From: an uncultured Saprospiraceae bacterium
GTDB lineage: Bacteria; Bacteroidota; Bacteroidia; Chitinophagales; Saprospiraceae
Assembly: GCA_937921555.1 (NCBI GenBank)
Contig: CAKZUV010000092.1
Coordinates: 1-33,097, forward strand
Direction: 5' to 3'
Length of the DNA stretch: 33,097 nucleotides
Part shown: positions 4,921 to 29,330 of the stretch, one piece after another
How the letters are laid out: every line of letters begins with the position of its first letter
Position numbering within the stretch: the stretch's first letter is position 1
The notes under the pieces: model-generated
Seen by the model: the letters and a program-made list of their open reading frames with translations, nothing else
What the model was told of the DNA's origin: nothing
Databases searched by the model: none
Program-made: the position numbers and the translations under genes

Positions 4921-5092
4921 TTGGTTGGTTAATTAGTTATCGGTTATCGGTTATCAGTTAATCGGTGATTTGTTGACTGGTCACGCAATACGTAATACAT
5001 TCAGGTCATTTGGGACTGTTCAACAATCTGTGTTTTTTTGATACGTTAGCATTGCGTAAAAAGAGACTAATCAACCAATAAACTGATTAACA
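4921..5092. repeat. Short-period array with inverted partner (locus A)
   Basis: The left arm at 4936-4964 has units GTTATCG, GTTATCG, GTTATCA, GTTAATCG (period 7-8) and degenerates up to 4980. The right arm at 5069-5092 has 8-bp units AATCAACC, AATAAACT, GATTAACA, the reverse-complement sense of the left motif. The arms could pair into a long imperfect stem. This lies in the 482-base gap between two convergent genes, the DUF1684 gene and the surA-like gene. I see no coding gene in that gap. Confidence 0.65.
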
Positions 5093-5201
5093 TTTACTTA
5101 TAAAAAATTATTTTATTTATATAAATTAAACTAATTGACTAGACACAGTTAAATGAACATTCCCGACCAGTCACGCAATACGTAATACATTCAGGTCATT
5201 T
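4980..5201. repeat. Exact 32-bp direct repeat, two copies 190 bp apart
   Basis: Positions 4980-5011 and 5170-5201 are identical; the copy begins GTCACGCAATACGTAATAC and ends GGTCATTT. The bases just before differ so that GACTGGTC in copy 1 becomes GACCAGTC in copy 2, its exact reverse complement. Between the copies, ATTGCGT near 5051 is the complement of ACGCAAT in the repeat, so nested pairing is possible. Only two copies exist here, which rules out a CRISPR array. Confidence 0.75.
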
Positions 5202-5265
5202 CAGCCCCAGTTGATTGAACACGCTAGACGATCTTGCATATTATCAGGAAAATGGATGAAATGAG

Positions 5266-5407
5266 GTTGTCTTGTTAAGTGTGTTGGCGCGTTGGCCTTT
5301 CTTTAGGAACACAAGGTGCGGGAAGCCAAATGACACACATGTCGTACAGTCCCGATAAAATCCGCATATCCGCACATCAAAAAATCAAAAAATCCACTAA
5401 TCAATAC
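5266..5407. repeat. Short-period array with inverted partner (locus B), overlapping the end of the surA-like gene
   Basis: The left arm at 5266-5297 has GTT-headed units spaced 8-9 bases. The right arm at 5360-5407 has six back-to-back 8-mers: ATCCGCAT, ATCCGCAC, ATCAAAAA, ATCAAAAA, ATCCACTA, ATCAATAC. The last unit overlaps the stop codon and final residue of the minus-strand surA-like gene, so that protein end was probably built from, or invaded by, the repeat. Confidence 0.6.
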
Positions 5408-6750
5408 CCCTCCTTCCATCTCGCCAGATCATCACAACCAGAATACTGCGGATCTAACTCAATGTAAGTATCTCTGATTTTTTGTCCTACCCATTCGGAC
5501 ATAAATCTGTTCTTTTTAGATTCCAGTGCCGCCGCCTTGATTTTTGAATAATCGAGTGCCAGGCTGGCTTTGTGTGGCTTGGTACGGGACCGTAGCTGAA
5601 TAGCGCGATAACCCTTACGTCCCGTCTGTTCGGTAAATTCAAAAGGAGCGGACAAGTCATTTACTTCCATCGTATCAATGGTAAAATAGATATCCGGATC
5701 GAGGTCTCCAACTTCATAAAAAGTATTACCCGTTTTAGGATTTACCAGATTACCACCATTGGTGTAGCTGGGGACATCTTCGTCCGAAAACCGGTTCACC
5801 GCGTAAACGAAAGGGATACTATCGTGGAGCACCAGATTACGAACCGAGTCGAGTCGGTTGCGGGCAAGCTCTTCGTCGGCTGGCGTGATCTCCGGCGTAA
5901 TCAAAATGTGACGAACGTGGATACTGTTTCCGCGCCGCTCCAGTAATTCCAGTAAGTGGTATCCAAATTGTGTTTCGATGACTTTGGATAATTCGTTGGT
6001 CTCCAGATTATACGCTTCCGCTTCAAATTCACCCACGTAACTTCCACGGGTAGCCCATCCAAGATCTCCGCCCTGTGCGCCGGAACCCGGATCATCCGAA
6101 TATTTTTTGGCCAGTTCCGCGAATTGAGCACCATCAATAATCTGCTGACGAATACCTTCCAGTTTTTCGCGGGCTTTGGTTTTCTCCTCCATATTCTGAG
6201 AAGGATAAATAACAATCTCGGCTACTTCTACTTCGGAATTAAAAAAGGGTAGACTATCTTTTGGAATTTGATTGAAGAAATCTTTTACCTCGGAAGGTGT
6301 AACGGTAGCATCGGCGATAATCTGCTGCTGCATCCGTTCGATCAGTAGTTTATTTTCCAAATCTACCCGAAACTGGGCCCGAACTTTTGAAACCGTGGCC
6401 CCGTAATATTCTTCAAATTGTTTTTCGTCACCGCCCATGTATTGCAGGATCTGATTGATTCTGGCGTCCAGTTGTGATTCAACTTCATTATCTGTGACCA
6501 CCACACTATCCAGCCGGGCTTGATTCAGCATCAGATTCTGGGCCAGCACCTGATCCATGATAACACAACGAGCTTCGTCTCCCAGTTCCGGCTGCCGCTT
6601 CTTGGCCAAACTAAACTGATCTTCGATATCAGAAAGTAAAACGAGCTCTTGACCGACGACTCCGACGACTTTATCAATCACCTGACGATCTTGCGCGTAG
6701 GAAAAGGATACGCTACAAATAACAAAAATAAAAACAATAAATTGACGCAT
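5401..6750 (-). CDS. surA: SurA-like periplasmic peptidyl-prolyl isomerase/chaperone
   Basis: A 449-residue exported protein with signal peptide 1-19 (SFSYA-Q). An N-terminal SurA-type chaperone region (DKVVGVVGQELVLLSDIEDQ at 26-45, a helical stretch to about 165) is followed by a good parvulin domain at about 173-272 (FAELAKKYSDDPGSG, GGDLGW, then QFGYHLLEL) and a second, diverged parvulin-like domain at about 277-388 (IHVRHILI, YTNGGNL). SurA escorts unfolded outer-membrane proteins across the periplasm; here the adjacent SprA barrel is an obvious kind of client, by inference. It is the last gene of a three-gene operon: its ATG overlaps the stop of the gene before it (TAATG at 6752-6748). 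The C-terminal end (EGY) abuts an 8-bp repeat array. Confidence 0.9.
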   Translation of the reverse strand: MRQFIVFIFVICSVSFSYAQDRQVIDKVVGVVGQELVLLSDIEDQFSLAKKRQPELGDEARCVIMDQVLAQNLMLNQARLDSVVVTDNEVESQLDARINQILQYMGGDEKQFEEYYGATVSKVRAQFRVDLENKLLIERMQQQIIADATVTPSEVKDFFNQIPKDSLPFFNSEVEVAEIVIYPSQNMEEKTKAREKLEGIRQQIIDGAQFAELAKKYSDDPGSGAQGGDLGWATRGSYVGEFEAEAYNLETNELSKVIETQFGYHLLELLERRGNSIHVRHILITPEITPADEELARNRLDSVRNLVLHDSIPFVYAVNRFSDEDVPSYTNGGNLVNPKTGNTFYEVGDLDPDIYFTIDTMEVNDLSAPFEFTEQTGRKGYRAIQLRSRTKPHKASLALDYSKIKAAALESKKNRFMSEWVGQKIRDTYIELDPQYSGCDDLARWKEGY

Positions 6751-9703: not shown

Positions 9704-9877
9704 CGAATTTTACGCCTGTATTTTATACTTAAATACCTTTCAAAATAGCCTATCTGCTCAAATGCCGCCAATTGTTGAATCTACCGGCGTACTACTAGAT
9801 ATTTGCCGGGTTTGAGGTACGCCTTCAGCCTGGAAAGCACTAAATTTCCAGGTAATCAACAGGAAGAAAATATTGTA

Positions 9878-10031
9878 ACCGCAATCACAACTGCAACCGC
9901 AATTTCAAACACTTCCATCGTGTTTTCTTAACAAGCCACTTTTCATTCGTTTTGCAGGACGTCTATTTAAAAAGTGGTGTTGCTCATTTAGTAGGTTTTG
10001 AAGCTGAAGTTGAGTTTGAAATTGAAGTTAT
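9878..10031. repeat. Hexamer array with inverted partner
   Basis: The left arm has in-phase 6-mers ACCGCA, ATCACA, ACTGCA, ACCGCA, ATTTCA from 9878 to 9907. The right arm has 6-mers TTTTGA, AGCTGA, AGTTGA, GTTTGA, AATTGA from 9996 to 10025. Rotated, the left arm is (CAANNN)n and the right arm its reverse complement (NNNTTG)n. An 11-bp perfect inverted repeat (9900-9910 with 10014-10024) links them, and a further CCACTTTT/AAAAGTGG pair lies inside, so the whole block can fold back on itself. Confidence 0.65.
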
Positions 10032-10044
10032 TATTTGATCGTTA

Positions 10045-12531
10045 CTAAATAACTTCCTGAAAATAAACCCTTTTTACCCGTTCGGAGATTCCGGTGAAAA
10101 TCTCGTACGGAATAGTTTCCAAACTATCGGCCAGCCTGGTTACGGGCAGATCGGGACCGAAAATAATCACTTCGTCGCCCATACTCGCCTGCGGAACGCC
10201 GGTAATGTCCATCATACACATATCCATACAGATATTTCCGATGGTGGGCACCCGGACACCGTGCAGCAAACCACTGAAACGCCCGTTACCCGCTTTTCGC
10301 AGCAAGCCATCCGCATATCCGATATTGATGGTGGCAATAAGGCTGTCCCGTTGCGTACGTCCTTTCCGGCCATAACCGACAGAAGTACCTTTTTTTACCA
10401 GTTTTATGTGGGAAATACTTGCTTTGAGTGTGTGCACTGTTTCCAGTTGGGTGCTTCCACGGGTAGCCGCGTCGTACCCGTAGAGTCCGATTCCCAAACG
10501 AACCATATCCATCTGGTATTGTGGAAAACGAGTGATTCCGGCGGTATTCAGTACATGCCGGGTCGGCTGATAGCCAATTTTTTGAGAAATCTCCCGGTAA
10601 CTGGCTTCAAAAGCAGCAATTTGCTGACGGGTAAACGCATCGTGGTGATCCTCGTCGCTGGCCGCCAGATGGGTAAAAATAGAAGCCAGTTTCAGTGCCG
10701 GACAGTCCATCAGTATTTTGAATAAAGCCGGAAAATCTGTGGGTTTCAAACCCAGCCGGGACATACCGGTATCGAGATTGAGGTGAATAAGAAAACTGCC
10801 ACTACGTGAATCCGCCAGATTGGTCAGTTCGATCAGCCGGTTGAGCTGATTGATACTGTAGATTTCCGGTTCGAGTTGGTGCTGGACCAATGTTTCCAGA
10901 GAGGATTCTTCCGGATTTAAAACAAGGACAGGCAATTTGATTCCTGCTTTTCGGAGATCGACTCCTTCGTCGGTATAAGCGACTGCCAGATAATCAACGG
11001 AACGGGCGGCCAGCAGTCTGCCGATTTCTACGCTACCGATCCCGTAGGCTGCGGCTTTGACCATGACCATAATTTTGGTGGTGGGAGCTAACTGCTGTCT
11101 GTAAAAAAGCAGATTGTGCTGTAAGGCACTCAGGTTGATTTCCAGGACGGTCTGGTGATGTTTTTGCCGGAGCCGGGCGACAATTTTTTCCAGTTGAAAA
11201 ACCCTGGCTCCCTTTATCAGAATAATTTCTGATTGAAAATGATCGGACTTTAGCTGGGAAATGAATTTATCAGTAGTAGGGTAGTAGTCGGATTTTATTT
11301 TTTTAGAAAGATATTTTTTTAACGTGGTAATTTGTTTTCCAACGGCGATGATTCTCTCTATCCGGTGAAGCTTCAATAGTTCTGCCATTTTTTTATAAAG
11401 CAAATCTTTTGTTTTTCCGGATTCTAAAATATCGGATACGATCAGCGTGCGCGGACGGTCGTCTCCCTGCTGGGCCATAAAATTAAGCGCTGCTTTTAAA
11501 GAAGATAAATCTGCGTTGTAGCTGTCATTAATCAGCAGGCACTTGTTAATTCCTGTTTTTAATTCCAGTCGCATCGCTACGGGTTCGAGTTGATTTAACG
11601 CTGTTTTTATTTTCTGACTGGATAATTTCAGGAAGGTAGCGGTTACCCAGCAGTGGATTGCGTTTTCGATTGCAGTGGGTTCCGTAAACGGAATGATGAT
11701 CTGTCGTTTTTTTTCTTTATAAACAGCGGAAATTCTGGTTAGATTTTTAGCCGTTCGTTCCGTAGAAATAATTTTCCAGTCTGCGTTGTTATCAAAAGCC
11801 CAGCTTAGTGTTTTTCCTTTGAAATGGCGCTTAATCAGTTTGTCAAGCCGGGCATCATCGCTGCGATAGATGAGGGTTCCAGTATTTTTAAAAAGCACTA
11901 ATTTCTCCTTTATTTTCTGTGTGACAGAAGTGAAACCAGCGTTATGGGCATCTCCAATATTGGTGAAAATACCAATGTCCGGAGCGATGATATTCGCCAG
12001 ATTTTTCATTTCATCTGGTTGCGAAATACCCGCCTCGAAAATTCCCAGCGTATCTCCTTTTTTTAATTCTAAAACGGAAAGCGGAACCCCCAGTTGCGAA
12101 TTATAACTCTTGGGACTGCGGGTGATTTGAAATTGTGATTTTAAAGTCTGAAAAAGCCATTCTTTAACAATGGTTTTTCCGTTGCTGCCCGTAATGCCAA
12201 TGACGGGAATTTTGAATTTCAGACGATGTACGGTCGCCAGTTTTTGCAAAGCAGTTAGGGTTTTATTAACCACCACAAAGCCAGCCTCTGGCATTTTTTT
12301 AAAATCCGGATTGCGCTGTGTTAAAAAGTAGCGAACACCTTTTTGATAAAGTTCTTCCAGGTACTTATGGCCATCATTTCTATCTCCGGCAATAGCAACA
12401 AACAACGTGTTTTCGGGAAATACCAGTTTACGACTATCGTAGATCAGGTGTTTGACCAATTGCGGATTCCCGGAAGCGGCGTGTAGCTTTCCGTTGGTAA
12501 TTTTCGCGATTTCTGAAAGATAATATTCCAT
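10045..12531 (-). CDS. murF-alr: Bifunctional MurF ligase / alanine racemase fusion
   Basis: An 828-residue fusion typical of Bacteroidota. Residues 1 to about 455 are MurF (UDP-MurNAc-tripeptide:D-Ala-D-Ala ligase): ATP loop GITGSNGKT at 112-120, NDSYNADLSSL from 335 and LIKGAR at 438-443. From about 461 to the end is a PLP alanine racemase: Schiff-base lysine in VKAAAYG (K492), LDTGMSRLG near 587 and the second catalytic base in SVGYGRKG (Y720), with IGNICMDMCMMD near 764. One polypeptide can thus make D-Ala and ligate the D-Ala-D-Ala dipeptide onto the peptidoglycan precursor in the cytoplasm; Ddl is still needed between the two steps. The usual VKANAYG is VKAAAYG here. The start lies 46 bases after purD, so the two probably form an operon. 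Confidence 0.95.
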   Translation of the reverse strand: MEYYLSEIAKITNGKLHAASGNPQLVKHLIYDSRKLVFPENTLFVAIAGDRNDGHKYLEELYQKGVRYFLTQRNPDFKKMPEAGFVVVNKTLTALQKLATVHRLKFKIPVIGITGSNGKTIVKEWLFQTLKSQFQITRSPKSYNSQLGVPLSVLELKKGDTLGIFEAGISQPDEMKNLANIIAPDIGIFTNIGDAHNAGFTSVTQKIKEKLVLFKNTGTLIYRSDDARLDKLIKRHFKGKTLSWAFDNNADWKIISTERTAKNLTRISAVYKEKKRQIIIPFTEPTAIENAIHCWVTATFLKLSSQKIKTALNQLEPVAMRLELKTGINKCLLINDSYNADLSSLKAALNFMAQQGDDRPRTLIVSDILESGKTKDLLYKKMAELLKLHRIERIIAVGKQITTLKKYLSKKIKSDYYPTTDKFISQLKSDHFQSEIILIKGARVFQLEKIVARLRQKHHQTVLEINLSALQHNLLFYRQQLAPTTKIMVMVKAAAYGIGSVEIGRLLAARSVDYLAVAYTDEGVDLRKAGIKLPVLVLNPEESSLETLVQHQLEPEIYSINQLNRLIELTNLADSRSGSFLIHLNLDTGMSRLGLKPTDFPALFKILMDCPALKLASIFTHLAASDEDHHDAFTRQQIAAFEASYREISQKIGYQPTRHVLNTAGITRFPQYQMDMVRLGIGLYGYDAATRGSTQLETVHTLKASISHIKLVKKGTSVGYGRKGRTQRDSLIATINIGYADGLLRKAGNGRFSGLLHGVRVPTIGNICMDMCMMDITGVPQASMGDEVIIFGPDLPVTRLADSLETIPYEIFTGISERVKRVYFQEVI

Positions 12532-13852: not shown

Positions 13853-13867
13853 ATTGATATTTTCTGG

Positions 13868-21100: not shown

Positions 21101-22561
21101 TTTTTACGAAAGGCCAGATTGTCTTACTCGCAGCAGTTCTCTACCGTGATTCCCGGATTTATGGAAAATAGCGAACTATTCGGTCAGTCGAGCGGATTTG
21201 ACGCACCGGGCTGGGGCTTCGTAACGGGACTCCAACCCAATATTGATGCGAATAGTGGAAATGATTATCTGGATCAGGCTGCTACCAAAGGCTGGATTTC
21301 GGATGATCCGTTTTTAAACCAGCAAGTGATTCAGAATTCGACCGAGCAGTTGGATGCCAAGATTACCCTGGAGCCATTTACCGATTTTGCGATTGACCTG
21401 ACGGCAACCCGTAAGTTTACCGAAAATCAGTCTTTGTACTTTAAGTTTTTTGATGAGCCAGTTGATCCGAATGATCCCAATAGTGCTACCAGAGGGTTTG
21501 ATCATGCGCTGCCGAGGGAGTTTGGCTCTTACGAAATTTCCTACTTTGCGTTAAACACCTTGTTTGGTGACGCGGATGATCTGTTCAATACCTTCCTGGA
21601 AAACCGGGAAACGATCTCCCAGAATCTTGGTGCGGGTACCCACGCCATTGACGGGGCGGAGTACACCGAAGGTTATGGCCGGGTCCAGCAGAATGTAGTC
21701 CTTCCGGCCTTTATTTCTGCTTACACCAAGACCGATCCGGGGCAGGTAGAAGCGACTGATAATTACGCGAAAGAAGTACTCTTTAAGGTATTGCCGAAAG
21801 TAAACTGGCAGCTCAATTACCGTGGATTGTCTAAGCTGAGTTTTTTCGAAAAATACTTCAGTAGTTTCAATGTGACGCACGGTTACCGATCCACTTTGCA
21901 GGTAAACAGTTTTATTACCAACCAGCGATTCATGAACGATAACACGGATTTTATCAATCTGCCTACGGGTAACTTTATCACCCGTTTTGAAATTCCTGAG
22001 CTGGTCATCAACGAACAATTTGCGCCGCTCCTTGGACTGGATGTCCGCTTGCACAACGAGATGACTTTTAAAGTAGACTTTAAAAAATCCCGTTCGTTGG
22101 CATTAAGTTTACAGGACAACAGTTTGAACGAAACCCGCTCGGACGAATACGTTATCGGATGGGGATACCGGATGAAGGACGTTTATATTGCTTTCCTGAA
22201 AGGAGGAAAGAAGAAAAATAAGAAGAAAACCAGAAAGAAGTCGTCTAAAAATAATCCGTCACCTAATGCGGGCGGCGGTAATAATAAGGACGACGAAGTG
22301 AGTGATTTAAATTTTGCTTTTGATTTTGGTTTCCGAAATAACCGTTCTTTCCGGAATGCATTTGACAACAGTATTGAAACCTCGGAAGCGACGCGGGGTA
22401 ACAAGACAATTACCATCAATCCGGCGGTAGATTATGATATCAGTAAAAAATTAAACGCCAGATTGTTTTTCGATTATACCCGTACGATTCCAACGACGAC
22501 GGCGCAGTTCCCAACCACCAATATTGCGGGAGGTGTGCGGATTCGGTTTACGCTGGATTAA
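15113..22561 (+). CDS. sprA: T9SS outer-membrane translocon SprA/Sov
   Basis: A 2482-residue giant protein, close to the roughly 2400-2500 residues of known SprA/Sov. SprA forms the very large outer-membrane barrel through which type IX secretion substrates leave the cell. I start at ATG 15113 because MKIENLLLSVIFCFSLISL then reads as a clean signal peptide; ATG 15065 would add 16 residues in front of it. Family features are the early RDPLSKIDVQESLRDRLFGG and GVDIRPQGNIDLTFGVDFQ segments, WEVWI/NNRNE-type repeats (MEVWITNDRNEVENI), GTVYVDDFEGTTS, WNRSYDLNWDFTRNLKFNFNA and a C-terminal barrel strand ending RIRFTLD. Two Lys/Arg-rich stretches (about 1943-1983 and 2363-2396) look like long loop insertions. 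It stands alone between ruvA and a strong hairpin terminator. Confidence 0.95.
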   Translation: MKIENLLLSVIFCFSLISLTNASLPAGNNLKDPYGPEIILAQDTLPPVSERFGDHISNPANNPFDLRDPSIIEKEVNYDPATGTYIITEKIGDEYFRMPSFMTFDEYLEYKSKQEEKEYFDRLAGVGKKGGKLSSRDDPLSKIDVQESLRDRLFGGTGVDIRPQGNIDLTFGVDFQRTENPAWTIRQQKTGGFDFDMDIEMSVEAAIGEKLKMSTNYNTQATFDFQNTMKLDYDSDAFNEDDIIKTIEVGNISFPLRSSLIKGSQSLFGLHTELKFGKLTLGLVASQQKSQNQSIRIEGGSQVQEFEVRADEYDENRHFLLTHYNRATFEESLENLPQIQSLFKVTRMEVWITNDRNEVENIRDIVAMSDIGEPDTLTNETDTYGTPLPTRHPDINGRGLPGVDLATNIGANNILTDLVGDLNDTLAAGRSLDNAVASLTSLGFQQSRDFEKVSARLLSPNEYTYNSDLGFISLNVNLRPDQVLGVAFEYDYNGATYQVGELTKEGAGNNEDGDLTVLYVKMLKSTTQRVDVATWDLMMKNHYNIGAFQVNPDDFVFDIFYDDPGKAPKRFIPERTDQPLLRIFNLDQLNVQGDPCPDGIFDFVSNITINPRNGRIMYPVLEPFGNSLRESLNQLEPPVAEPIVESYIYDELYRQTVFNAREFTEKNRFIMKGTYKSSVSSEISLGAFNLPEGSVTVRAGGRVLVPGQDYDIDYNIGRIKILNDGVLNSGTPVDVSFEDNTLFSVQTRTMLGVRADYEINKDFNIGATYMRLFERPFTQKVNIGDDPINNRVLGFDINYRKEAPFLTKMVDAIPFIETKEPSSINFVAEVAALKPSHPRAINVGTNDDDEKGGTVYVDDFEGTTSNNDLRIPANNWVLASVPQNAVDELGSRVLSESSLINDINGGANRALINWYRIDQTISGNNQSAYTRLIEQDEVFPGRQVQNLGFGTLGTFDITYYPRERGPYNFDLPGGVPIPDGMTAGLDNTGGLLEPETRWGGIMRALNNNDFQAANIEYLEFWVLNPFIDNPINGTNVDGGELNIDLGNISEDILRDSRKFFENGIPTEPNVPTDETNWSRIPRTNAVTNAFDSDPALREIQDVGLDGYNSDQEANIYGEYLNTINGSALNADAKARIQADISNDDFVNFRDRNFDPQATVFDRYRANNNPEGNSGAPEDGIVNSSTNIPDAEDLNNDNTLGETESYFNYKIPIRPTGVPGESGEIEIDVENSSFISDERRIAGTNRVWYRFRIPLNGPEKRAIGGIQDFRSIRFIRMYLREFRQPVTLRFATLELVRNQWRRYTLRGLDTNPCPDTDGCMDDDVAFDVNAVNVEENSGKIPFAYDLPPGIIRERSLNTTFPNQFQNEQSLTLEVQNLDRDFGVGAYKIINMDWRLYENMNMFVHAEAFDDFNLEAVPDGEVSLFIRMGSDFEQNYYEYEIPLDLSRDPVAAMSDAFELWRTSNAIDIKLDEFKNAKIERNATSFDVTERYVKPYEYRYQFDPTDEDDPEEVKINNIIVKGNPNLGQVKGVMLGIRNNGNAEHSVEVWCNELRLNGIDEQGGVAALARADIQLADFADMTISANANSIGWGQLEDPVNDRARESTLAYDVSANIAMDKFLPEESGIKIPLFVGYSKSTDTPQYDPYDQDLTLQESMDAAATEEERREIKESALDVTEIKSWNVTNLRKERTGGKDDKPKPWDIENFDLTYAYTNTNRHNPIIERDIEEVREGRINYRFNRKSNYIQPFKKLSKSKYLKLITDFNFSLLPSSVAVSTDMIREFQQTRYRFVDAGAGEFNREFFNKQFRWNRSYDLNWDFTRNLKFNFNARNEAVIDELKEINPDGSKPGDEEKKETIWDGIKDFGRNKFYTHQFGVDYKLPLKSIPFLDWIQVKAQYNADYSWTAAALNTVELGNVIQNGQTRKLDGDINFEQLYKKSKFLSAIDRKKPRRRSRNKRGKDDKKDTKKKEEKEETAEKTKKKRKKGEVSNATRLALRPLLFLRKARLSYSQQFSTVIPGFMENSELFGQSSGFDAPGWGFVTGLQPNIDANSGNDYLDQAATKGWISDDPFLNQQVIQNSTEQLDAKITLEPFTDFAIDLTATRKFTENQSLYFKFFDEPVDPNDPNSATRGFDHALPREFGSYEISYFALNTLFGDADDLFNTFLENRETISQNLGAGTHAIDGAEYTEGYGRVQQNVVLPAFISAYTKTDPGQVEATDNYAKEVLFKVLPKVNWQLNYRGLSKLSFFEKYFSSFNVTHGYRSTLQVNSFITNQRFMNDNTDFINLPTGNFITRFEIPELVINEQFAPLLGLDVRLHNEMTFKVDFKKSRSLALSLQDNSLNETRSDEYVIGWGYRMKDVYIAFLKGGKKKNKKKTRKKSSKNNPSPNAGGGNNKDDEVSDLNFAFDFGFRNNRSFRNAFDNSIETSEATRGNKTITINPAVDYDISKKLNARLFFDYTRTIPTTTAQFPTTNIAGGVRIRFTLD

Positions 22562-22566
22562 AGAAA

Positions 22567-22643
22567 GCTATTGGCCATTAGCTATTAGCCGTTGGCTTCC
22601 CTTTACCACGTTAAAAGAGCGCCAATAGCAAAAAGCCAATGGC
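22567..22643. repeat. Heptamer array with inverted partner downstream of sprA
   Basis: Left arm: four 7-mers ATTGGCC, ATTAGCT, ATTAGCC, GTTGGCT (22570-22597). Right arm: GCCAATAGC and AAGCCAATGGC (22621-22643). GCTATTGGC (22567-22575) pairs exactly with GCCAATAGC (22621-22629), and GCCGTTGGCTT pairs with AAGCCAATGGC with one mismatch. It begins 5 bases after the sprA stop and is directly followed by the strong terminator. Confidence 0.65.
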
Positions 22644-22712
22644 CTGGAAAAAAAATACCCGAATTAGATTTTGACTTAAAACCAAAATTTAATTCGGGTA
22701 TTTTTTTTCCAG
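22644..22712. terminator. Very strong hairpin terminator after sprA
   Basis: A perfect 23-bp inverted repeat: the left arm at 22644-22666 (CTGG, eight A, TACCCGAATTA) pairs with 22690-22712. The 23-base interval holds a further ATTTTG/CAAAAT pair (22668-22673, 22683-22688). With one G-U pair between them, this makes a nearly continuous 30-bp stem with a 9-base loop. A-tract and T-tract flanks would let it stop transcription from both directions, isolating sprA from the kinase gene. Confidence 0.9.
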
Positions 22713-22754
22713 TTAAAAGACTGTTAAATAATGAAAAAGGGAAAATCTAAATGT

Positions 22755-22762
22755 TAAATTTG
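22755..22762 (+). promoter_or_regulatory. Possible -7 element (TAAATTTG) of the kinase/regulator pair
   Basis: An exact TAnnTTTG match 28 bases upstream of the kinase ATG at 22791 and downstream of the sprA terminator, where a promoter is required. No exact TTG -33 element is seen. Confidence 0.5.
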
Positions 22763-22790
22763 TTGCACAGGAATTTAGCACAAACATTTT

Positions 22791-24248
22791 ATGAATAAAA
22801 AAGCAATATGGGCCATCATCGGGTTAATGAGCGTTGCGCTGATTGGGATTGTCCTGTTGCAGATGTACTGGATTCGGCTTTCTATTCAGGAAAAACAGGA
22901 TAAATTTAATCTGAACGTCACCGAAGCACTCAACCGGGTGAGTATAAAACTGGAAGCGGTAGAAGATAAAAAGAATAAAGATTCTGATTTAGAATTTAAC
23001 GCGACCGGATTTGACGAATATAATCAACCGATAGATGGTGTGCCGAGGGTCAATGAAGGATTGATGAGCGAAGCAGATAGGACGCGACGCTACAAGGCCC
23101 TGGAAAAGCAGCGGCAACGGGAGAGTTACCGGGAACTGATTAATGGGATTCCGCTGAGTGAAAGAATTAATCTGGAAGATCTGGAGATTTTTTTAAAAAA
23201 TGAATTATCCAACCAAGCCATTAATATTGAATACGATTACGGCGTATTTGACCGGGAAGAAAAGTCTTTTGTGATACTCAACGGATATTACGTGGTGCAG
23301 GATAAGTCGCCTTTAATGTTACTGGCGGGTCACAAAAATATTTACAATTCAGATTATAAAGTAGATTTATTTCCGTCTGAACTCCAGTCACCGGGCGTCA
23401 TTATGGTGCATTTTCCTACCCGGACCAGTGTGTTGTGGAGTGGTGTATGGCGGTATTTATTGCTGTCGAGTATTTTTATTGGAATTATATTGTTCTGTTT
23501 TACGTATTCTGTCATGGTGATTTTTATGCAAAAGAAATTATCAGAAATGAAAACGGATTTTATTAATAACATGACCCACGAATTTAAGACGCCCATTGCG
23601 ACCATTTCGTTGGCTGCGGATTCGATTACCAGTCCGATGATTTTAAATAATGGAGATAAGGTGAAGCGTTTTGCCGAAATCATCAAACAGGAAAACAAGC
23701 GGATGAACAGTCAGGTGGAGCGGGTATTACAAATGGCGGTGATTGATAAAAGAGATTTTCAGTTGAAAGTCACGACCATTGATCTGCACGAAGTCATCAA
23801 ACTGGCGGTAGAAAATGCCAGCTTACAGGCTGCCAAAAAAGATGGAACCGTAACCGTAGAACTGAAGGCCGGAAACCCCATCGTACAGGGCGATATGACG
23901 CATATTTCCAACATGATCAACAACTTATTGGAGAATGCTAACAAATATTCACCGGAAAAACCAAAAATTAAGGTCTATACACGCAATGTTCCGAGCGGAG
24001 TTGAAGTTATAGTGGAGGATCATGGTATCGGCATGAATAAAGAAGCACTGAAACATATCTTTGATAAATTCTACCGCGTCCATACCGGAGACATTCACAA
24101 TGTAAAAGGATTCGGTTTGGGACTAAGTTATGTCAAAGCGATGATGACGGCGCACAACGGACAGATCGACGTAAAGAGTCAACCGGGAAAAGGGAGTAAA
24201 TTTTATCTGATTTTCCCACATCAGCAGAAAATTCCGGATGAGAATTAA
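22791..24248 (+). CDS. rprX: Membrane sensor histidine kinase, RprX-like
   Basis: A 485-residue sensor kinase. TM1 is about 5-27, a periplasmic region of about 190 residues has no recognised domain, and TM2 is about 222-245. The kinase core follows directly with no HAMP visible: phosphoacceptor H263 in NNMTHEFKTP, N box NNLLENANKYS, G1 VEDHGIGM, F box FDKFYRV and G2 GFGLGL. The adjoining regulator is very close to Bacteroides RprY as I recall it, so this is the RprX partner. In that genus RprXY has been tied to envelope and stress responses; the signal here is unknown. The gene has its own promoter region after the sprA terminator and is followed by a 162-base gap before the regulator. Confidence 0.9.
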   Translation: MNKKAIWAIIGLMSVALIGIVLLQMYWIRLSIQEKQDKFNLNVTEALNRVSIKLEAVEDKKNKDSDLEFNATGFDEYNQPIDGVPRVNEGLMSEADRTRRYKALEKQRQRESYRELINGIPLSERINLEDLEIFLKNELSNQAINIEYDYGVFDREEKSFVILNGYYVVQDKSPLMLLAGHKNIYNSDYKVDLFPSELQSPGVIMVHFPTRTSVLWSGVWRYLLLSSIFIGIILFCFTYSVMVIFMQKKLSEMKTDFINNMTHEFKTPIATISLAADSITSPMILNNGDKVKRFAEIIKQENKRMNSQVERVLQMAVIDKRDFQLKVTTIDLHEVIKLAVENASLQAAKKDGTVTVELKAGNPIVQGDMTHISNMINNLLENANKYSPEKPKIKVYTRNVPSGVEVIVEDHGIGMNKEALKHIFDKFYRVHTGDIHNVKGFGLGLSYVKAMMTAHNGQIDVKSQPGKGSKFYLIFPHQQKIPDEN

Positions 24249-24310
24249 AATACAGAAAAAAGCTCCATGTTTTTTTAATTGAAAACTGCTGAAAAAAACA
24301 AAACAAACCC

Positions 24311-24341
24311 TCTGATCGTTGATTAACTGGATCAGACTTTT
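24311..24341 (+). terminator. Hairpin with T-run between the kinase and regulator genes
   Basis: TCTGATC (24311-24317) and GATCAGA (24330-24336) flank a 12-base loop and are followed by CTTTTT. It lies between the kinase stop and the regulator start. If active it would reduce read-through, so the regulator may be expressed separately or at a different level. The loop contains GATTAACTG, a unit found in the 8-bp arrays. Confidence 0.55.
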
Positions 24342-24410
24342 TATAAACTTGAAGGTGAACAAATACTAATTTATCCGCCGTTCATTATTTACTCAGAAAA
24401 ATCAATAAAA

Positions 24411-25142
24411 ATGGCAAACGAAAACAATCGAATCCTGTTGGTAGAAGATGACCGAAATTTTGGTGATGTACTGCGTTCTTATCTGGAAATGCACGACTAC
24501 AACGTCACACTCGCTACAGACGGGGAAGCTGGTCTGGAAGCCTATAACAAAGGAACATTTGACCTTTGTATTTTTGATGTCATGATGCCAAAAAAAGACG
24601 GCTTTACGCTTGCCACCGAAATCCGCGAAAAGGACGGTGACAAAACGCCCATCATTTTTCTGACCGCTAAAACCATGAAGGAAGATGTATTGAAAGGATT
24701 TAAGATCGGAGCGGACGATTATATTTCCAAGCCTTTTGTTTCCGAAGAATTACTCTACCGGATTCAGGCTATTCTAAAACGCAATCAGGCGGCGGTTAAT
24801 CCAAAAGAAGAAATCAAAGAGTTTGTCATTGGCAAATATCACTTTAATTTTCCGTTGCGTATCCTGACATTCACGGATGATAACGGAGACGAATCCAAGG
24901 ATAAATTATCACCCAAAGAAGCGCAATTGCTCAAGATGTTCTGCGTGTATATGAATGACATTCTGCCCCGTTCCGAAGCGTTGACCAAAATCTGGGGAGA
25001 AGACAATTACTTCACCGCGCGTAGTATGGATGTATTTGTTACCAAACTACGGAAGTATCTGAAGAGCGATAATAATATTGAGATTGTAAATATACACGGT
25101 AATGGTTTTCAGTTGCTGGTAAGAGGAGGAGAAGTGGTGTAG
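24411..25142 (+). CDS. rprY: OmpR-family response regulator, RprY-like
   Basis: A 243-residue regulator: receiver domain at about 6-122 with acidic pocket EDD (12-14), phospho-acceptor D56 in CIFDVMMP, FLTAK with the conserved Thr, and KPF lysine. A winged-helix DNA-binding domain follows at about 140-238 (LSPKEAQLLKMF, TARSMDVFVTKLRKYLK, IVNIHGNGFQLLV). The receiver text DVMMPKKDGFTLA and GFKIGADDYISKPF closely match RprY of Bacteroides and Porphyromonas as I recall them. It is the partner of the kinase just upstream, and acts in the cytoplasm as a DNA-binding transcription factor. A terminator follows. Confidence 0.93.
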   Translation: MANENNRILLVEDDRNFGDVLRSYLEMHDYNVTLATDGEAGLEAYNKGTFDLCIFDVMMPKKDGFTLATEIREKDGDKTPIIFLTAKTMKEDVLKGFKIGADDYISKPFVSEELLYRIQAILKRNQAAVNPKEEIKEFVIGKYHFNFPLRILTFTDDNGDESKDKLSPKEAQLLKMFCVYMNDILPRSEALTKIWGEDNYFTARSMDVFVTKLRKYLKSDNNIEIVNIHGNGFQLLVRGGEVV

Positions 25143-25196
25143 TGGGAAAATTGCTGAATGACAGACATTGACTGTTATTTATTGTAAACAAAATAT

Positions 25197-25235
25197 AAAA
25201 AGCGTCGATCCATTGTTTTGGGTTGGCGCTTTTTT
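25197..25235 (+). terminator. Terminator after the RprY-like gene
   Basis: GCGTCGATCCA pairs with TGGGTTGGCGC through G-C, A-U and G-U pairs around a 6-base loop, with A and T tracts outside. Bases 25208-25235 match the reverse complement of 25752-25779 at 25 of 28 positions, that is, the terminator on the far side of the next small gene. Confidence 0.85.
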
Positions 25236-25303
25236 GATTTAGTTTGTTGTTTTATTTTACAAAAATAATATGTATATTGTTTTTAATGCAAAAATATAGT
25301 GCT

Positions 25304-25654
25304 ATGAAATATTTAATGATGCTCACACTTTTAATCTTGTCTTCCTGCTCTAAGGATAGCAATCCTATAGATAATGTAACTTCTAAAAACCCCTTTGATT
25401 ACCTGTCGGATGCTGATAAAGAAGATAGAACAAATCAAATGACAGACTATTTAAAATCATCTCTTGAAATTGATTACAAAAAAGATCTAACGCTCATCCG
25501 TGATAAAGCACCCGAATACAAAGCGGCCTACGAAAAGGCCAGTGACCATCCGGCGGATAGATTGAAGTATCTGATGTACGGTAAAGATCTGGAAAGACGT
25601 TCAAAATCCTGTTTTCATGCCAATGACTTGTTACAGTTTGATGCGCAGCACTAG
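25304..25654 (+). CDS. Small lipoprotein of unknown function
   Basis: A 116-residue protein. I start at ATG 25304 because MKYLMMLTLLILSSC then forms a proper lipoprotein signal (lipobox LSSC, Cys15); an upstream ATG at 25244 would bury it. After the anchor come KDSNPIDN and a mostly helical, Lys/Asp-rich body (DKEDRTNQMTDYLKSS, KAPEYKAAYEKASDHPAD). No known domain is recognised. It is more A/T-rich than the regulator upstream and stands alone between two near-identical terminators of opposite orientation, so it may be a recently inserted or exchanged single-gene unit. Confidence 0.65.
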   Translation: MKYLMMLTLLILSSCSKDSNPIDNVTSKNPFDYLSDADKEDRTNQMTDYLKSSLEIDYKKDLTLIRDKAPEYKAAYEKASDHPADRLKYLMYGKDLERRSKSCFHANDLLQFDAQH

Positions 25655-25690
25655 TGCCACAAGCACTAAGTTTTTATATAATTCTGGAGC

Positions 25691-25737
25691 CACAAAGTCA
25701 CAAAGGACACGAAGAAAAAACATTGTGTTCTTCGTGT
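25691..25737. repeat. CACAAAG-type repeat with hairpin
   Basis: CACAAAGTCACAAAGGACAC is followed by a perfect 10-bp hairpin, ACACGAAGAA (25707-25716) with TTCTTCGTGT (25728-25737). CACAAAG/CTTCGTG strings of this kind are, as I recall, dispersed in many genomes. The stem lies between convergent genes and may also help transcription end. Confidence 0.55.
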
Positions 25738-25751
25738 TTTAGTAGCAAAAT

Positions 25752-25790
25752 AAAAAAACGCCAACCCAAATGAATGGATTGGCGTTTTTT
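25752..25790. terminator. Bidirectional terminator between the lipoprotein and hemD
   Basis: AAAAAACGCCAACCC and GGATTGGCGTTTTTT form a stem with one mismatch and A/T tracts on both sides. It serves convergent genes. Its left part is an inverted near-copy of the terminator at 25208-25235. Confidence 0.85.
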
Positions 25791-25810
25791 ATATTTTTAA
25801 ACTTTACTTT

Positions 25811-26587
25811 CTACTTATTTGATTCCCGCAGGTAAGCTTCCAGGGCTGCCGTCATAGACGTGATGCCCGGTGCCGGACAAGCGATATTAAGATCAAGTCC
25901 TAACTCTTCCACTTTCTTTTTGGTGCTGTTTCCGAAGACGGCGATCCGGGTTTCGTTTTGCTCAAAATCGGGAAAGTTAATATACAGCGATTCGAGGTCA
26001 CGCGGACTGAAGAAAACGAGTACATCGTATTTTACGTCACTCAGATCAGACAAATCACTGCTAACGGTCCGGTACATCATTGCATCCTGCCAGTTAAATT
26101 CGTTTTCCGTCAGGAATTTGGAAACGGATTTACTGCCCAGGTTAGAACAAGGCAGCAGGAAATTCTCTTTTGCTTTGTGTTTGATCAAGGCAGGTTTCAA
26201 ATCCATAATCGTCCGTTTGCCGGAAAAAACCTTCCGCTTCCGGTAGACAATGAATTTTTGCAGGTAGTTGGCTACCTGCTCCGTAAGGCAGAAATACTTG
26301 GTATCCTGCGACATCTTGATGCGGAGTTCTTCGCACATCTGGAAAAAATGATCCACCGCATTCTTGCTGGTCAGAATAACCGCAGAATAATCTTCCGGTT
26401 TGATCCTGGTCTTGCGGAACTCCTTTACGGGCACCGGTTCGACGTGAATAAAATGACGCCAGTCAATCTTCAGATCGTACTTTTCTTCCAGTTTATAGTA
26501 TGGAGAACGTTCTGGTTTTGGTTGGGAAACCAGAATGGTTTTTACTTCTTTATAGGTTTCTTTCAAAGCTTTAGACGATGAGGTCAT
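25811..26587 (-). CDS. hemD: Uroporphyrinogen-III synthase family protein
   Basis: A 258-residue protein of the HemD fold: two alternating Rossmann-like lobes, with TILVSQPKPERSPYYKLEEKYD at the start, the conserved AVILTSKNAVDHFF (about 69-82), KYFCLTEQVANYL, ENFLLPCSNLGSKSV, YRTVSSDLSDL and DVLVFFSPRDLESL, and a closing VFGNSTKKKVEELG. HemD closes and flips hydroxymethylbilane to uroporphyrinogen III for heme or siroheme. The HemD active site has few invariant residues, so the annotation rests on the overall pattern. The DUF4271 gene is upstream on the same strand, 129 bases away, a pairing I recall in other Bacteroidota. Confidence 0.85.
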   Translation of the reverse strand: MTSSSKALKETYKEVKTILVSQPKPERSPYYKLEEKYDLKIDWRHFIHVEPVPVKEFRKTRIKPEDYSAVILTSKNAVDHFFQMCEELRIKMSQDTKYFCLTEQVANYLQKFIVYRKRKVFSGKRTIMDLKPALIKHKAKENFLLPCSNLGSKSVSKFLTENEFNWQDAMMYRTVSSDLSDLSDVKYDVLVFFSPRDLESLYINFPDFEQNETRIAVFGNSTKKKVEELGLDLNIACPAPGITSMTAALEAYLRESNK

Positions 26588-26716
26588 TTATATAATGTTT
26601 TTGGATCGTCGCACCGTAAGGTTATATCTGATCCACAATAAATATTTTAATTATTTACTACTTAAAATACTGTTTATCAGTAAAATAAACAATATAATTA
26701 AATTTATATATCGAAA

Positions 26717-27787
26717 TTATTGGTTTGTTACCAATTTTACCAGGACTAATAATGGCGCTATTTCGATGGTGCAAAGGTAAACAAAAAAATGAAATTTGTG
26801 CAAGCTTATATATTTAAGACCGATGAAAAGGCTGCGCAGGATACGGTAAAGATATATCAGACCAATTACAATAAATGTTCCGTAAATCAGTGGTAGGGTC
26901 AGGTTAGCCGGAGCGTAAATGATCAATAAAATGGTTGGCAGTAGAAAAAATCCAATCATAGTTCCAAAAATAATGATGGTAAAACTATATTGCTCTATCT
27001 CTTTTGAGACAGGAAAAACAGATCCGATGATTTGCAGAATCAGATGTTTTATTATAAAAATAGCAAAAACACCACCCGTACAGGCCAGGAAATTGAGGAT
27101 AGGAGCAGCAAAGAAGGCTATTTTATAGTGTGTAAGGACCACAAATACAAAGGTGCCGATCAGAATGAGTGCGAATACGTAAAGAATCAGATAAGGAATC
27201 ATGGATACGGTACCATAATCCCGGTGGACCATTTTTAGAAAATTATCGTTTAAAAAAGACCGGTACACTTTTGCCAGGGCGGATTTGTAGATATTTACGA
27301 GTACTGTGAGAACCGTTACCAGCAAAATGGTCATCCAGAGTTTAAATTTTCCGCTCAGTGGTTCCGTTCCGGTAATCACTGATTTTTTATTGGGCGTAGC
27401 TACGGATGCTTTTGGCGTTGAAAACGAAGGTCTTTTTACTTCAAAGGGATTTTGGGGATCAACGGAAGATTCAGCGGAGGCGTTTTCGCCGGAACTGCCG
27501 GGTGACTCGCCGGATGTTGTAACTGGGGAAGCATCCATTTCAAACGGATTGTCCTGATTGGGAGGGGTCTCCGTGGCGGGTAATTCGGTCGCAGTATCTT
27601 TTTCGATTTCAAAGGGATTCTGATCCGTGGGCACAGCGACGGGAAGATTGGTTTCGGGATTTACTTCCTCGGTGGGAATCTTCCGGCCAGGCAACTCAAA
27701 CGGATTATTTCCCTGCTGGGCCAGGAGACCAATGGAGGCAGAGAGTAAACTCAGAAGAATCAAAATGTGTTTTCCCAATTTCAGCAT
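26717..27787 (-). CDS. DUF4271 membrane protein with four NPFE motifs in its exported N-terminal part
   Basis: A 356-residue protein. A signal peptide or signal anchor (1-23, ending SIGLLA-QQ) is followed by a low-complexity Pro/Glu/Thr region to about 145 and then by six or so membrane segments making up the DUF4271 domain (from about 150 to the end). The low-complexity region holds four NPFE motifs at 28-31, 57-60, 80-83 and 113-116, each followed by a bulky hydrophobic residue (L, I, M, V) and mostly preceded by Q/D/N. The function is unknown. It lies upstream of hemD on the same strand. Repeated NPFE could be a docking motif for a periplasmic partner; that is speculation. Confidence 0.85.
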   Translation of the reverse strand: MLKLGKHILILLSLLSASIGLLAQQGNNPFELPGRKIPTEEVNPETNLPVAVPTDQNPFEIEKDTATELPATETPPNQDNPFEMDASPVTTSGESPGSSGENASAESSVDPQNPFEVKRPSFSTPKASVATPNKKSVITGTEPLSGKFKLWMTILLVTVLTVLVNIYKSALAKVYRSFLNDNFLKMVHRDYGTVSMIPYLILYVFALILIGTFVFVVLTHYKIAFFAAPILNFLACTGGVFAIFIIKHLILQIIGSVFPVSKEIEQYSFTIIIFGTMIGFFLLPTILLIIYAPANLTLPLIYGTFIVIGLIYLYRILRSLFIGLKYISLHKFHFFVYLCTIEIAPLLVLVKLVTNQ

Positions 27788-27791
27788 GACA

Positions 27792-27799
27792 CAAAGTTA
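27792..27799 (-). promoter_or_regulatory. Possible -7 element (TAACTTTG) of the DUF4271 gene
   Basis: The minus-strand match to TAnnTTTG is 4 bases upstream of the ATG at 27787, so transcription would start at or next to the start codon (leaderless or nearly so). There is no -33 support. If this is the true promoter, the next in-frame ATG should be considered as a start too. Confidence 0.35.
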
Positions 27800-27892
27800 A
27801 ACAATAATCAAGAAAATCTGCTTGTTAATAAGCTGTTAAGCGTAAGCTTTGATTTTTTATTCTTGCGCAGATCGAGTAGCTTCACGTAGGAT

Positions 27893-29161
27893 ATGGAAAA
27901 TAATATTATTCGTCGGGTAGTCATTTTAGGTGCCATTACGATTATCGGGATTCTGGGTATTCAGGGATACTGGGTGATGCGAACCTGGGATATTCAGCAA
28001 CAGGAATTTAGTCAGACGGTAAAAATTGCCTTACTCAGCGTGGCAAAGGAACTTGAAACCCTGAATGGCCGCAACAGTCTGCCCATCAAAGGACTGATCA
28101 GTCAGCAATCCAGTAATACGTATATTGTCAATATCAACGACGAGATCAACGCAAATACCCTGGAATTTTATCTACAGAAAGAATTGGAGGCCCGGGCGGT
28201 TAACGCCGATTTTGAATATGGTATTTTTGATTGTGAAAGTCGCGAAATGGTCTATGGCCGGCGGATCAATTATTCGGAAGATAAAGAATTAAATACCCAG
28301 ACCAATCCGCTGCCGACTAATGGAGATTTCGATTATTATTTTAGTGTTCGTTTTCCCAATCAGAAAGGATATCTGCTGGAAGATATGCGACTGGCGATCT
28401 TTTTTTCGATTATCTTATTTTTCTCAATTTTGTTTTTTATTTACTCGATGTTTATTATCATGCGGCAAAAGCGGCTCTCCGAAATGCAGAAGGATTTTAT
28501 TAATAATATGACCCACGAGTTTAAAACACCTATTTCGACCATCAAGATTTCTGCGGATGTATTTTTGAAAAATGAGGTGATAAAAAATGACCAGCGCCTC
28601 AGCCGCTACGCACAGATTATCAAAGAACAAAATCAGCGGCTGAATATGCAGGTAGAGAAAGTACTGCAACTGGCAAAAATTGAACGGAATGGTTTTTCGC
28701 TTAAAAAAGAAGCCGTCAACGTACACGAATTACTGGCAGAGATTACCGCCAGCGCACAGGTCCGGCTGGGGGAAGTTAAGGGTAGTTTAATCACAGAATT
28801 TAACGCCACGCAACCCAACATTCAGGCAGACCGTCTTCATCTCAATAATATTTTATACAATCTGATTGATAATGCGATTAAATACAGTTACGAAAATCCG
28901 GAAGTTCGGCTGACCACACGAAACGAAGGAAATCAGTTCATCATCAGTATTGAAGATAACGGAATCGGAATTACCAGAGAAAATCAACAGAGGGTTTTTG
29001 ATAAATTCTATCGGGTGCCAACCGGTGATATTCACAATGTAAAAGGTTTTGGACTCGGACTGTTTTATGTTAAAAATATTTGTGATGCCCACGAATGGGA
29101 ACTACAACTTAATAGCGAACCGGGGAAAGGAACGAAGATCGAGGTGTTGATTGGTGGATAG
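27893..29161 (+). CDS. Membrane sensor histidine kinase, second paralogue
   Basis: A 422-residue kinase organised like the one at 22791: TM1 about 9-28, a periplasmic region of about 140 residues, TM2 about 166-188 and no visible HAMP. The core has H208 in NNMTHEFKTP, N box YNLIDNAIKYS, G1 IEDNGIGI, F box FDKFYRV and G2 GFGLGLFYV. Around the His box and the F/G2 boxes it is nearly identical to the first kinase (LSEM, DFINNMTHEFKTPI, TGDIHNVKGFGLGL), while the periplasmic regions differ, so the two likely read different signals with one ancestral output module. The regulator partner follows after 169 bases filled by a repeat array. Confidence 0.9.
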   Translation: MENNIIRRVVILGAITIIGILGIQGYWVMRTWDIQQQEFSQTVKIALLSVAKELETLNGRNSLPIKGLISQQSSNTYIVNINDEINANTLEFYLQKELEARAVNADFEYGIFDCESREMVYGRRINYSEDKELNTQTNPLPTNGDFDYYFSVRFPNQKGYLLEDMRLAIFFSIILFFSILFFIYSMFIIMRQKRLSEMQKDFINNMTHEFKTPISTIKISADVFLKNEVIKNDQRLSRYAQIIKEQNQRLNMQVEKVLQLAKIERNGFSLKKEAVNVHELLAEITASAQVRLGEVKGSLITEFNATQPNIQADRLHLNNILYNLIDNAIKYSYENPEVRLTTRNEGNQFIISIEDNGIGITRENQQRVFDKFYRVPTGDIHNVKGFGLGLFYVKNICDAHEWELQLNSEPGKGTKIEVLIGG

Positions 29162-29166
29162 GGGAT

Positions 29167-29330
29167 TGGTTAGTTAGTGGTTAGTTAATCGGTTAATCAG
29201 TAATTGGTTAACTGGTGGACCCACGATAGCAGAGCACTAATTAACCGATTAACTAATGAATATCCTGCGATGGAAGCGTACCGATTAACTGATTAACTGA
29301 TTAACCAATAAACGGATCAACTAAAAAACC
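29167..29330. repeat. Octamer arrays in inverted orientation between kinase and regulator
   Basis: Left arm 29183-29214: 8-mers AGTTAATC, GGTTAATC, AGTAATTG, GTTAACTG. TTAGTTAATCGGTTAAT (29181-29197) pairs perfectly, 17 bp, with ATTAACCGATTAACTAA (29240-29256). A further right arm, 29283-29330, has six 8-mers in register: GATTAACT, GATTAACT, GATTAACC, AATAAACG, GATCAACT, AAAAAACC; the last ends at the base before the regulator's ATG. The block therefore supplies the whole ribosome-contact region of that gene. Confidence 0.75.

Follow-up and report, generated by a model that had tools for sequence, protein, structure and literature searches.

Intergenic gaps in the genome of an uncultured Saprospiraceae bacterium carry mirror arrays, in which a short array of degenerate 6-9 bp units is followed by units of opposite sense, and the arrays follow a strand rule: read on the coding strand, arrays adjacent to start codons are mostly A/C-rich and arrays adjacent to stop codons are mostly G/T-rich. 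The rule is strong in this genome and was absent from the original prediction, which had been made from the letters of one 33 kb stretch of DNA (contig 92, G000:C92; hereafter the window, meaning the whole of that stretch). We give a probability of about one half to the explanation that the arrays are slippage-grown tracts at gene edges, copied by fold-back and partly spread by repeats that carry a dispersed 14-nt core.

The source genome, a metagenome-assembled genome (MAG) of 5.44 Mb in 403 contigs, was examined in part. Its closest relatives, found by protein search with five loci, are Saprospiraceae MAGs with 90-94% identity. The own-genome sample compared with shuffled DNA comprised 237 gaps in 41 stretches, namely the window and 40 stretches picked by contig number; the stretches from relatives were hand-picked places on contigs already in view, with no strict random draw. 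A further set of 75 loci (L094-L168, the HK-locus set) is not fully independent because all its loci centre on one homologous gene. Genes were called by the length of open reading frames (ORFs) only, using the longest-ORF rule, thresholds were chosen by the analyst, and several counts were taken from tables by eye and are marked as such. Loci and genomes are designated by L and G numbers.

Five mirror loci had been proposed in the window. Clear mirror arrays were found at three of them, 4919-5091, 22567-22644 and 29168-29324, and a weak one at 9875-10029. At 5266-5297/5360-5407 no mirror was found: a dispersed repeat of about 75 bp includes the left part, the right part is simply an array of 8-bp units, and the RNA of 5266-5407 folds worse than its shuffles (z = +1.68; 196/200 as stable). 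The placing of all loci at gene ends was borne out, since in each one arm reaches a stop codon or comes to within about 15 bases of it; the genes that end there encode a histidine kinase (HK; followed by a response regulator gene), a SprA-like protein, a DUF1684 protein, an alanine racemase and a rotamase. The period also differs between loci as claimed, being 8 bp at 29168-29324 (GTTAATCN / NGATTAAC), 7 bp at 22567-22644 (TTAGCTA-like units), mixed 7-8 bp at the long locus 4919-5091 (4919-4980 against 5067-5091), and 6 bp (CAANNN) at 9875-9915 and 9996-10029, which align with a score of 13. The coordinates of the features are given in Table 1.

In RNA folding, none of 200 shuffled sequences was as stable as 29178-29258 (z = -5.6), 22562-22645 (z = -3.45) or 4925-5100 (z = -2.9), compared with 15 of 200 for the 9875-10029 locus (z = -1.46), a relative of which, 71% identical and with CAANNN ends, was found at L263:777-971. 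The RNA stems at L014 and L087 also fold better than shuffles.

Table 1. Arrays, core copies and associated repeats at the five loci of the window.
Feature	Coordinates	Strand	Remarks
G/T-rich 7-8-bp array	4919-4980	+	immediately past the stop of the DUF1684 gene (4307-4918)
MITE-like repeat, imperfect terminal inverted repeats (17/22 positions)	5012-5164	.	relatives at L027:15043-15131 and in orthologous gap L032
Core variant TGCGTAAAAAGAGA within the 5012-5164 repeat	5053-5066	+	two mismatches
A/C-rich array within the 5012-5164 repeat	5067-5091	+	partner of the array at 4919
8-bp array (ATCCGCAC/ATCAAAAA)	5360-5404	+	overlaps the stop of the minus-strand rotamase gene (5401-6750); no mirror partner found
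Weak reverse-complement partner array	9875-9915	-	core-like CACGATGGAAGTGT at 9909-9922 (minus strand)
CAANNN array	9996-10029	-	15 bases past the stop of the alanine racemase gene on the minus strand (10045-12531); mirrors 9875-9915 weakly
G/T-rich 7-bp array	22567-22596	+	begins 5 bases past the stop of the SprA-like gene (15065-22561)
Core CACGTTAAAAGAGC	22607-22620	+	exact fit to YRCGWTNNAAGAGC
Reverse-complement A/C-rich array (GCCAATAGC...)	22621-22644	+	
G/T-rich 8-bp array (GTTAATCN)	29168-29215	+	begins 6 bases past the histidine kinase stop (gene 27893-29161)
Core copy 1, CACGATAGCAGAGC	29222-29235	+	one mismatch to YRCGWTNNAAGAGC
Reverse-complement array (ACTAATTAACCGATTAACTAA)	29236-29256	+	pairs with the array at 29168
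Core copy 2, TGCGATGGAAGCGT, diverged	29266-29279	+	same orientation as copy 1
A/C-rich 8-bp array (GATTAACT)	29280-29324	+	ends 6 bases ahead of the response regulator start (gene 29331-30014)

The strand rule was examined on arrays lying no more than 45 bp from a gene edge, each scored for A+C versus G+T on the coding strand. When every edge in all own stretches was taken, 17 of the 18 start-codon arrays were A/C-rich, and the 36 stop-codon arrays divided into 28 G/T-rich, 7 A/C-rich and 1 neutral. With the nearest edge only, the ratio of A/C-rich to G/T-rich arrays was 9:1 at 5' edges and 2:12 at 3' edges in the own contigs picked by number (p = 5e-4), 3:1 and 0:6 in the congener stretches (p = 0.03), and 10:1 and 0:8 in the HK-locus set (p = 1e-4). 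Three sets had been picked without regard to arrays (own by number, congener and family/order); pooled, they gave 17:4 and 6:24 (p = 3.5e-5), and a further 1 and 4 arrays were neutral. Since longest-ORF starts could favour A/C tracts ahead of starts, the test was rerun with ATG-only starts and edges within 60 bp. The ratios at 5' and 3' edges were then 8:1 and 3:12 for own contigs by number (p = 0.002), 9:1 and 1:16 for own array-chosen contigs and the window, 11:0 and 1:11 for the HK-locus set, 6:2 and 6:6 for the family/order stretches (p = 0.37), and 18:4 and 11:25 for the three sets pooled (p = 3e-4). Gaps of this genome tend to be G/T-rich at their left edge and A/C-rich at their right edge regardless of gene direction.

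The proposed recurrence of the architecture was upheld, and it extends beyond the window. Inverted repeats with a score of at least 12 were present in 51 of the 237 own gaps, compared with a mean of 4.6 in 20 dinucleotide-shuffle sets (highest 9), and by eye many of the 51 are ordinary short-loop terminators; arrays with a score of at least 12 were present in 28 gaps, compared with 0.75 in the shuffles (highest set 3). A frequency no higher than in shuffled gaps, which the original prediction had named as the outcome that would count against it, was thus not what this sample gave.

Mirror pairing was measured by searching for the reverse complement of each array, at a score of at least 12 and within 150 bp, in its own gap and in the flanks of arrays from other gaps. 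In the pooled set of 125 arrays, part of them from contigs selected for arrays, 29 had a partner in their own gap compared with 7.8 expected from other gaps. Partners numbered 15 versus 5.5 in all own stretches (58 arrays, array-chosen contigs included; same-strand partners 12 versus 6), 3 of 16 versus 0.9 in the congener stretches (same-strand 2 versus 0.9), 2 of 22 versus 0.7 in the family/order stretches (same-strand 5 versus 1.6) and 9 of 29 versus 0.7 in the HK-locus set (same-strand 2 versus 0.7). By gap type, the pooled counts were 20 of 72 versus 4.3 for tandem gaps, 8 of 35 versus 2.2 for convergent gaps, and 1 of 18 versus 1.3 for divergent gaps, in which same-strand partners numbered 5 versus 1.4. 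A permutation of arms among 26 hand-picked elements (297 summed over own arms; mean 207 and maximum 265 in 10000 permutations) was given no weight: the presence of arms had been the reason for choosing many of the elements, and the strand of one, L226, was misread.

Alignment of the kinase-regulator gap with congeners L093 and L090 first revealed a conserved short sequence between the arms. It corresponds to a dispersed 14-nt core, YRCGWTnGAAGAGC, which lies between the arms at two clear loci, exactly at 22607 and with one mismatch at 29222; the pattern was written partly from window and congener loci, and the window matches are not independent evidence. At one mismatch, YRCGWTNNAAGAGC occurs 120 times in the own genome, compared with 68 for the backwards pattern. 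In the own sample, 10 of 19 core matches were intergenic compared with 0 of 9 for the reversed pattern, and a mirror arm was present in 8 of the 10. Counts of YRCGWTNGAAGAGC in congeners, at one mismatch and against the control, were 45:9 (G001), 96:25 (G002), 53:9 (G003), 66:15 (G004), 56:32 (G005) and 96:18 (G006), and exact copies in the five congeners without G005 numbered 37 compared with 3 for the reversed control.

The fetched congener rows were called intergenic in 27 of 30 cases (L309 and L312 represent a single site, and L314 was classed as coding but by eye seems to be intergenic). Judged by eye, a short-word tract, mostly A/C-rich and of several types, follows nearly every intergenic congener core. 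Among the 23 with both gene edges known, the tract side points towards the nearer edge in 18; these 23 lie in tandem gaps (9 oriented with and 9 against transcription), convergent gaps (3) and divergent gaps (2). An inverted core doublet was found at L314, and direct tandems were found at 29222/29266 of the window and in G002:C330, where positions 31113-31154 hold three exact copies with a 14-bp period.

Outside the genus, counts of the core at one mismatch versus the reversed pattern were 56:34 (G088), 48:16 (G007), 28:16 (G009), 40:24 (G011), 39:20 (G021) and 32:23 (G022). Of 15 loci fetched from G007, G009, G011, G021 and G022, 13 lie in coding frames and 2 are intergenic without arrays; exact-pattern loci from other genera (G009 and G088 counted apart) were called coding in 15 of 15 cases, with L224 at a different match. 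In G088, two of three fetched loci (L213, L290) look like mirror elements with a core. As an intergenic element the core was thus observed only in this genus and in G088, in what is a small sample. A broad degenerate core scan gave 98 own matches compared with 90-131 for ten shuffled patterns, which is no evidence by itself, and served for display of candidates only; a scan with a position weight matrix, partly circular because its seeds include sample members, was set aside in favour of pattern counts with a reversed control.

Arrays do not depend on the core: when the 60 bp on the expected side were inspected, a core-like site was missing from 43 of 46 strong arrays in the own sample. The suggestion that the arrays are not one dispersed repeat family was partly wrong. 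In the window, two of the three clear loci share the core, a dispersed inverted-repeat element contains the right arm of the third, and overlaps with identifiable repeat families were seen at the remaining two loci as well.

One subfamily is mobile in appearance. At 14 sites, some of them partial, the core and 7-bp mirror arrays are centred between inverted ends ATGCGAATCAGGAGTT in the manner of a miniature inverted-repeat transposable element (MITE); this end sequence occurs at 45 places in the genome compared with 1 for the reversed control. Seven distinct copies are complete, with a length of 191-377 bp and terminal inverted repeats as in MITEs, and five of the seven were seen by eye to be flanked by a direct duplication, 5 bp or longer, of the kind left at a target site (absent at L330 and L333). 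The number of GCAAATA-like units varies among copies (L329 compared with L330). The dispersed inverted-repeat element at 5012-5164, which holds the right arm of the 4919-5091 locus together with a two-mismatch core variant, is 153 bp long. Within 4975-5201, a 37-nt direct repeat (95% identical; 4975-5011 and 5165-5201) abuts both of its ends and is unusually long if it is a target duplication.

The explanation that we favour describes a mirror array as two low-complexity tracts, one at each edge of the same intergenic gap. In the samples, the strand of a tract goes with the gene edge, mostly G/T-rich out of a stop and mostly A/C-rich into a start, and tracts of the same gap share words more than tracts of different gaps. 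Words shared on opposite strands are reverse complements, and opposite polarity at the two edges together with a common vocabulary results in a mirror, whose RNA at the three clear window loci folds to a stem better than shuffled sequence does. In this genus some tracts adjoin the core, which is able to stand as an inverted pair, and one subfamily travels on the MITE-like element. The tracts would grow and turn over by replication slippage, and fold-back template switching could copy one tract to the other strand across the gap. They may be retained where little harm results: A/C-rich leaders would suit starts that have no Shine-Dalgarno sequence, and cells may tolerate a stem past a stop codon or gain slightly from it as an mRNA 3' end. 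Generation in place, which had been offered as one origin, fits in that unit number and sequence differ between close copies and between orthologues.

Several observations weigh against this explanation. No template-switch or mutation event was caught. Same-strand partners were also in excess in the pooled set (21 versus 9.2), so that word sharing is not mirror-specific, and in the contigs taken by number alone the mirror excess was small (5 of 29 versus 1.8; same-strand 5 versus 2.4). The strand rule was not significant in the family/order stretches (5' 5:2, 3' 4:6, p = 0.33) or, with ATG-only starts, in the congener set alone (5' 4:1, 3' 2:7, p = 0.09), and the 9996-10029 array, A/C-rich on the coding strand after a stop, is an exception to it. 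No compensatory change was seen in the orthologous arms of the two gaps compared. Some other mirror arrays, among them L028 and L069, have different centres, such as CCCGCGATCGCGGG in L028, or none. The G/T tracts at convergent 3' ends are not accounted for by leaders, and no equally good reason is at hand.

A stricter form of the rule, in which arrays are written or kept at gene boundaries with a fixed strand, some of them capped by a core on the side away from the gene, would make the gaps array-armed fold-back units in which words are free to vary and polarity and complementarity persist. We regard this form as doubtful.

It is unlikely that the arrays are dispersed fold-back elements, that is, a non-autonomous family resembling MITEs or repetitive extragenic palindromic (REP) sequences, in which the core would be the end-cap, inverted doublets the mirror arrays and arrays the arms, spread by a transposase into gaps at gene ends. 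The core copies of the own genome and congeners with their mostly intergenic position, the inverted and direct doublets, and the ends and duplications of the MITE-like copies all argue for such a family. Against these stand the strong arrays that have no core on the expected side, the mirror arrays with other centres or none, and the use of different units by the arms of different copies. Nor were arrayed cores found to flank Y1 transposase genes, of which 12 loci from six genomes were inspected. Core-like sites with one mismatch come within 100 bp of a Y1 gene at L317 (overlapping the gene end) and L319 (71 bp away), neither with an array, and at L322 a mirror element lies about 590 bp from a Y1 gene. 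A link to Y1 transposases of the REP-associated tyrosine transposase (RAYT) type was not supported.

Selection for RNA hairpins at mRNA 3' ends, as terminators or stabilisers in which the stem is kept and the sequence is arbitrary, appears less probable again. It draws on the stems that fold better than shuffled sequence (L014, L087 and all three clear loci) and on the frequency of mirrors in tandem and convergent gaps (28 of 107) compared with divergent gaps (1 of 18; p = 0.07). A scan of 22400-29500 for intrinsic terminators, with a G+C-rich stem and then a T run, however, called none at 29168-29324 and gave one weak minus-strand call at 22633-22645, which uses part of one arm. A separate near-perfect inverted repeat (22644-22712; score 27.5; A and T runs at its ends) follows directly past the 22567 element and, from its sequence, is likely to be a two-way terminator. 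One mirror locus lies between a kinase and its regulator, which usually form one operon, and cores in tandem gaps of congeners are divided equally between the two orientations relative to transcription.

Orthologous arms bear on the same question. In the kinase-regulator gap, arms of the same gap scored 19 (window) and 15 (L093) compared with 17 and 14 between species, and in the DUF1684 gap they scored 14 (window) and 14 (L032) compared with 16 and 18. L090 keeps the core and the right array without the left G/T array, and L032 has a near-perfect TTAGTTGA left array where that of the window is degenerate. Pairing within a gap was thus no better than pairing across species. Over such a time span each arm changes on its own, an argument against strict selection for pairing in the two gaps, and the alternative origin by selection for long stems was not supported by these orthologues. 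One MITE copy (L203) showed matched changes in both arms by eye, a single case; covariation across the 14 sites of the MITE subfamily was dropped, the sites being too alike for judging by eye.

An explanation resting on the TAACTGA units just ahead of a start codon at 29280-29324 is very unlikely. The units of that array are in forward orientation and in the position described by MacGregor 2015 (PMC4679880; discussed below), but units elsewhere vary widely in length (6-9 bp) and sequence, and opposite-strand tracts past stop codons would need a separate explanation. Least credible of all is a composition artefact, in which the arrays would be no more than a sign of A-rich leaders and T-rich trailers and complementarity would be expected: edges without arrays share this tendency in the own contigs by number, but the lean is small (+0.08 at 5', -0.06 at 3') and absent at array-free 3' edges of two other sets (+0.02, +0.003), and the cross-gap control, which keeps composition and vocabulary, largely refutes it.

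Further dispersed repeats were noted in and around the window. The repeat in the non-mirror locus (5277-5353; GTGTGTCA...TGACACACA in relatives) matches five places, L010, L236, L017, L012 and L079, the last over 36 bases only. A repeat of about 164 bp at 13919-14082 has near full-length copies in L257, L027 and L080 (88-90% identical) and partial copies in several more stretches, and the repeat at 25665-25755 has relatives in L066, L013, L012 and L027. Another hairpin family, with a AACGTAGAC...GAGGCTTTTTAACGAA centre, is present at L055:4916-5077, L055:10638-10835 and L051:2538-2704; a 21-base end piece of the L051 copy recurs at window 10024-10044. Arrays of GTTGAAAT-like units adjoin a second palindrome-like sequence of the CCTGC...GCAGG type at L063:2666-2730, L069:4980-5038 and L086:8690-8752, which is perhaps another cap. 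A comparison of the window with Rfam gave five weak matches up to E = 5, all under gathering scores.

Low-complexity intergenic strings of Bacteroidota are easily passed over. The gene-edge strand rule can be measured, and counted in complete genomes, and has to be accommodated by every account of how such strings arise; should it fail there, the finding reverts to ordinary repeats. It ties the tracts to mRNA 3' ends and to translation starts that lack a Shine-Dalgarno sequence, and the core provides a handle on which arrays are mobile.

Among known systems, Nostoc has small dispersed repeats and short tandem repeats, and its small repeats are reportedly linked with heptamer arrays; the likeness to our arrays lies in this link and is one of description, not of sequence. 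Small dispersed repeats are mentioned in PMC3116915. REP sequences and their doublets (REPINs) served by RAYTs, as described in PMC3733652 and PMC3116915, are likewise short repeats near gene 3' ends that occur as inverted doublets and singlets. The tagged 20-40 bp stem-loop of their GTAG or CGTC type was not found in the one-sided core copies, in which the half-core CACGATAGAAGAGC has no internal stem, and no RAYT gene flanked by copies was found among the 12 Y1 loci. BrickBuilt, a MITE of Porphyromonas gingivalis with an internal minisatellite, is, according to PMC4596501, similar in being an intergenic element of Bacteroidota that bears a tandem array. Its unit is fixed at 23 bp, whereas the arrays described here have a period of about 7 bp, are mirrored about a core and, taken overall, are not tied to one MITE.

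Among the open-access papers that were searched, titles and abstract openings yielded no description of the two-sided strand rule or the 14-nt core. Template switching has been argued to create and repair hairpins (PMC8794818) and would yield reverse-complement copies beside the original; here it is a proposed mechanism only. Bacteroidetes generally have no Shine-Dalgarno sequences and their leaders fold less readily (PMC3155529), which fits A/C-rich tracts ahead of starts.

A close parallel is provided by the direct repeats of TAACTGA that MacGregor 2015 describes from Beggiatoaceae, Cyanobacteria and some Bacteroidetes, in forward orientation shortly before start codons; one set of Flexibacter litoralis is reversed and lies right past a stop codon (PMC4679880). 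Both systems include short 7-bp intergenic repeats, and the window array at 29280 includes TAACTGA units. Tandem repeats of exactly TAACTGA were not found, the units of that array being spaced at 8 and not 7 and other loci using other units. Forward orientation shortly before a start was seen in the 29280 array and, more generally, in the A/C rule near starts. The published repeats are one fixed heptamer, whereas those described here comprise many units of 6-9 bp, follow a strand rule at both gene edges, form mirror pairs and are joined by a distinct core. The published polarity is the same for one heptamer, and the present case widens it to many units and couples both edges of the gap.

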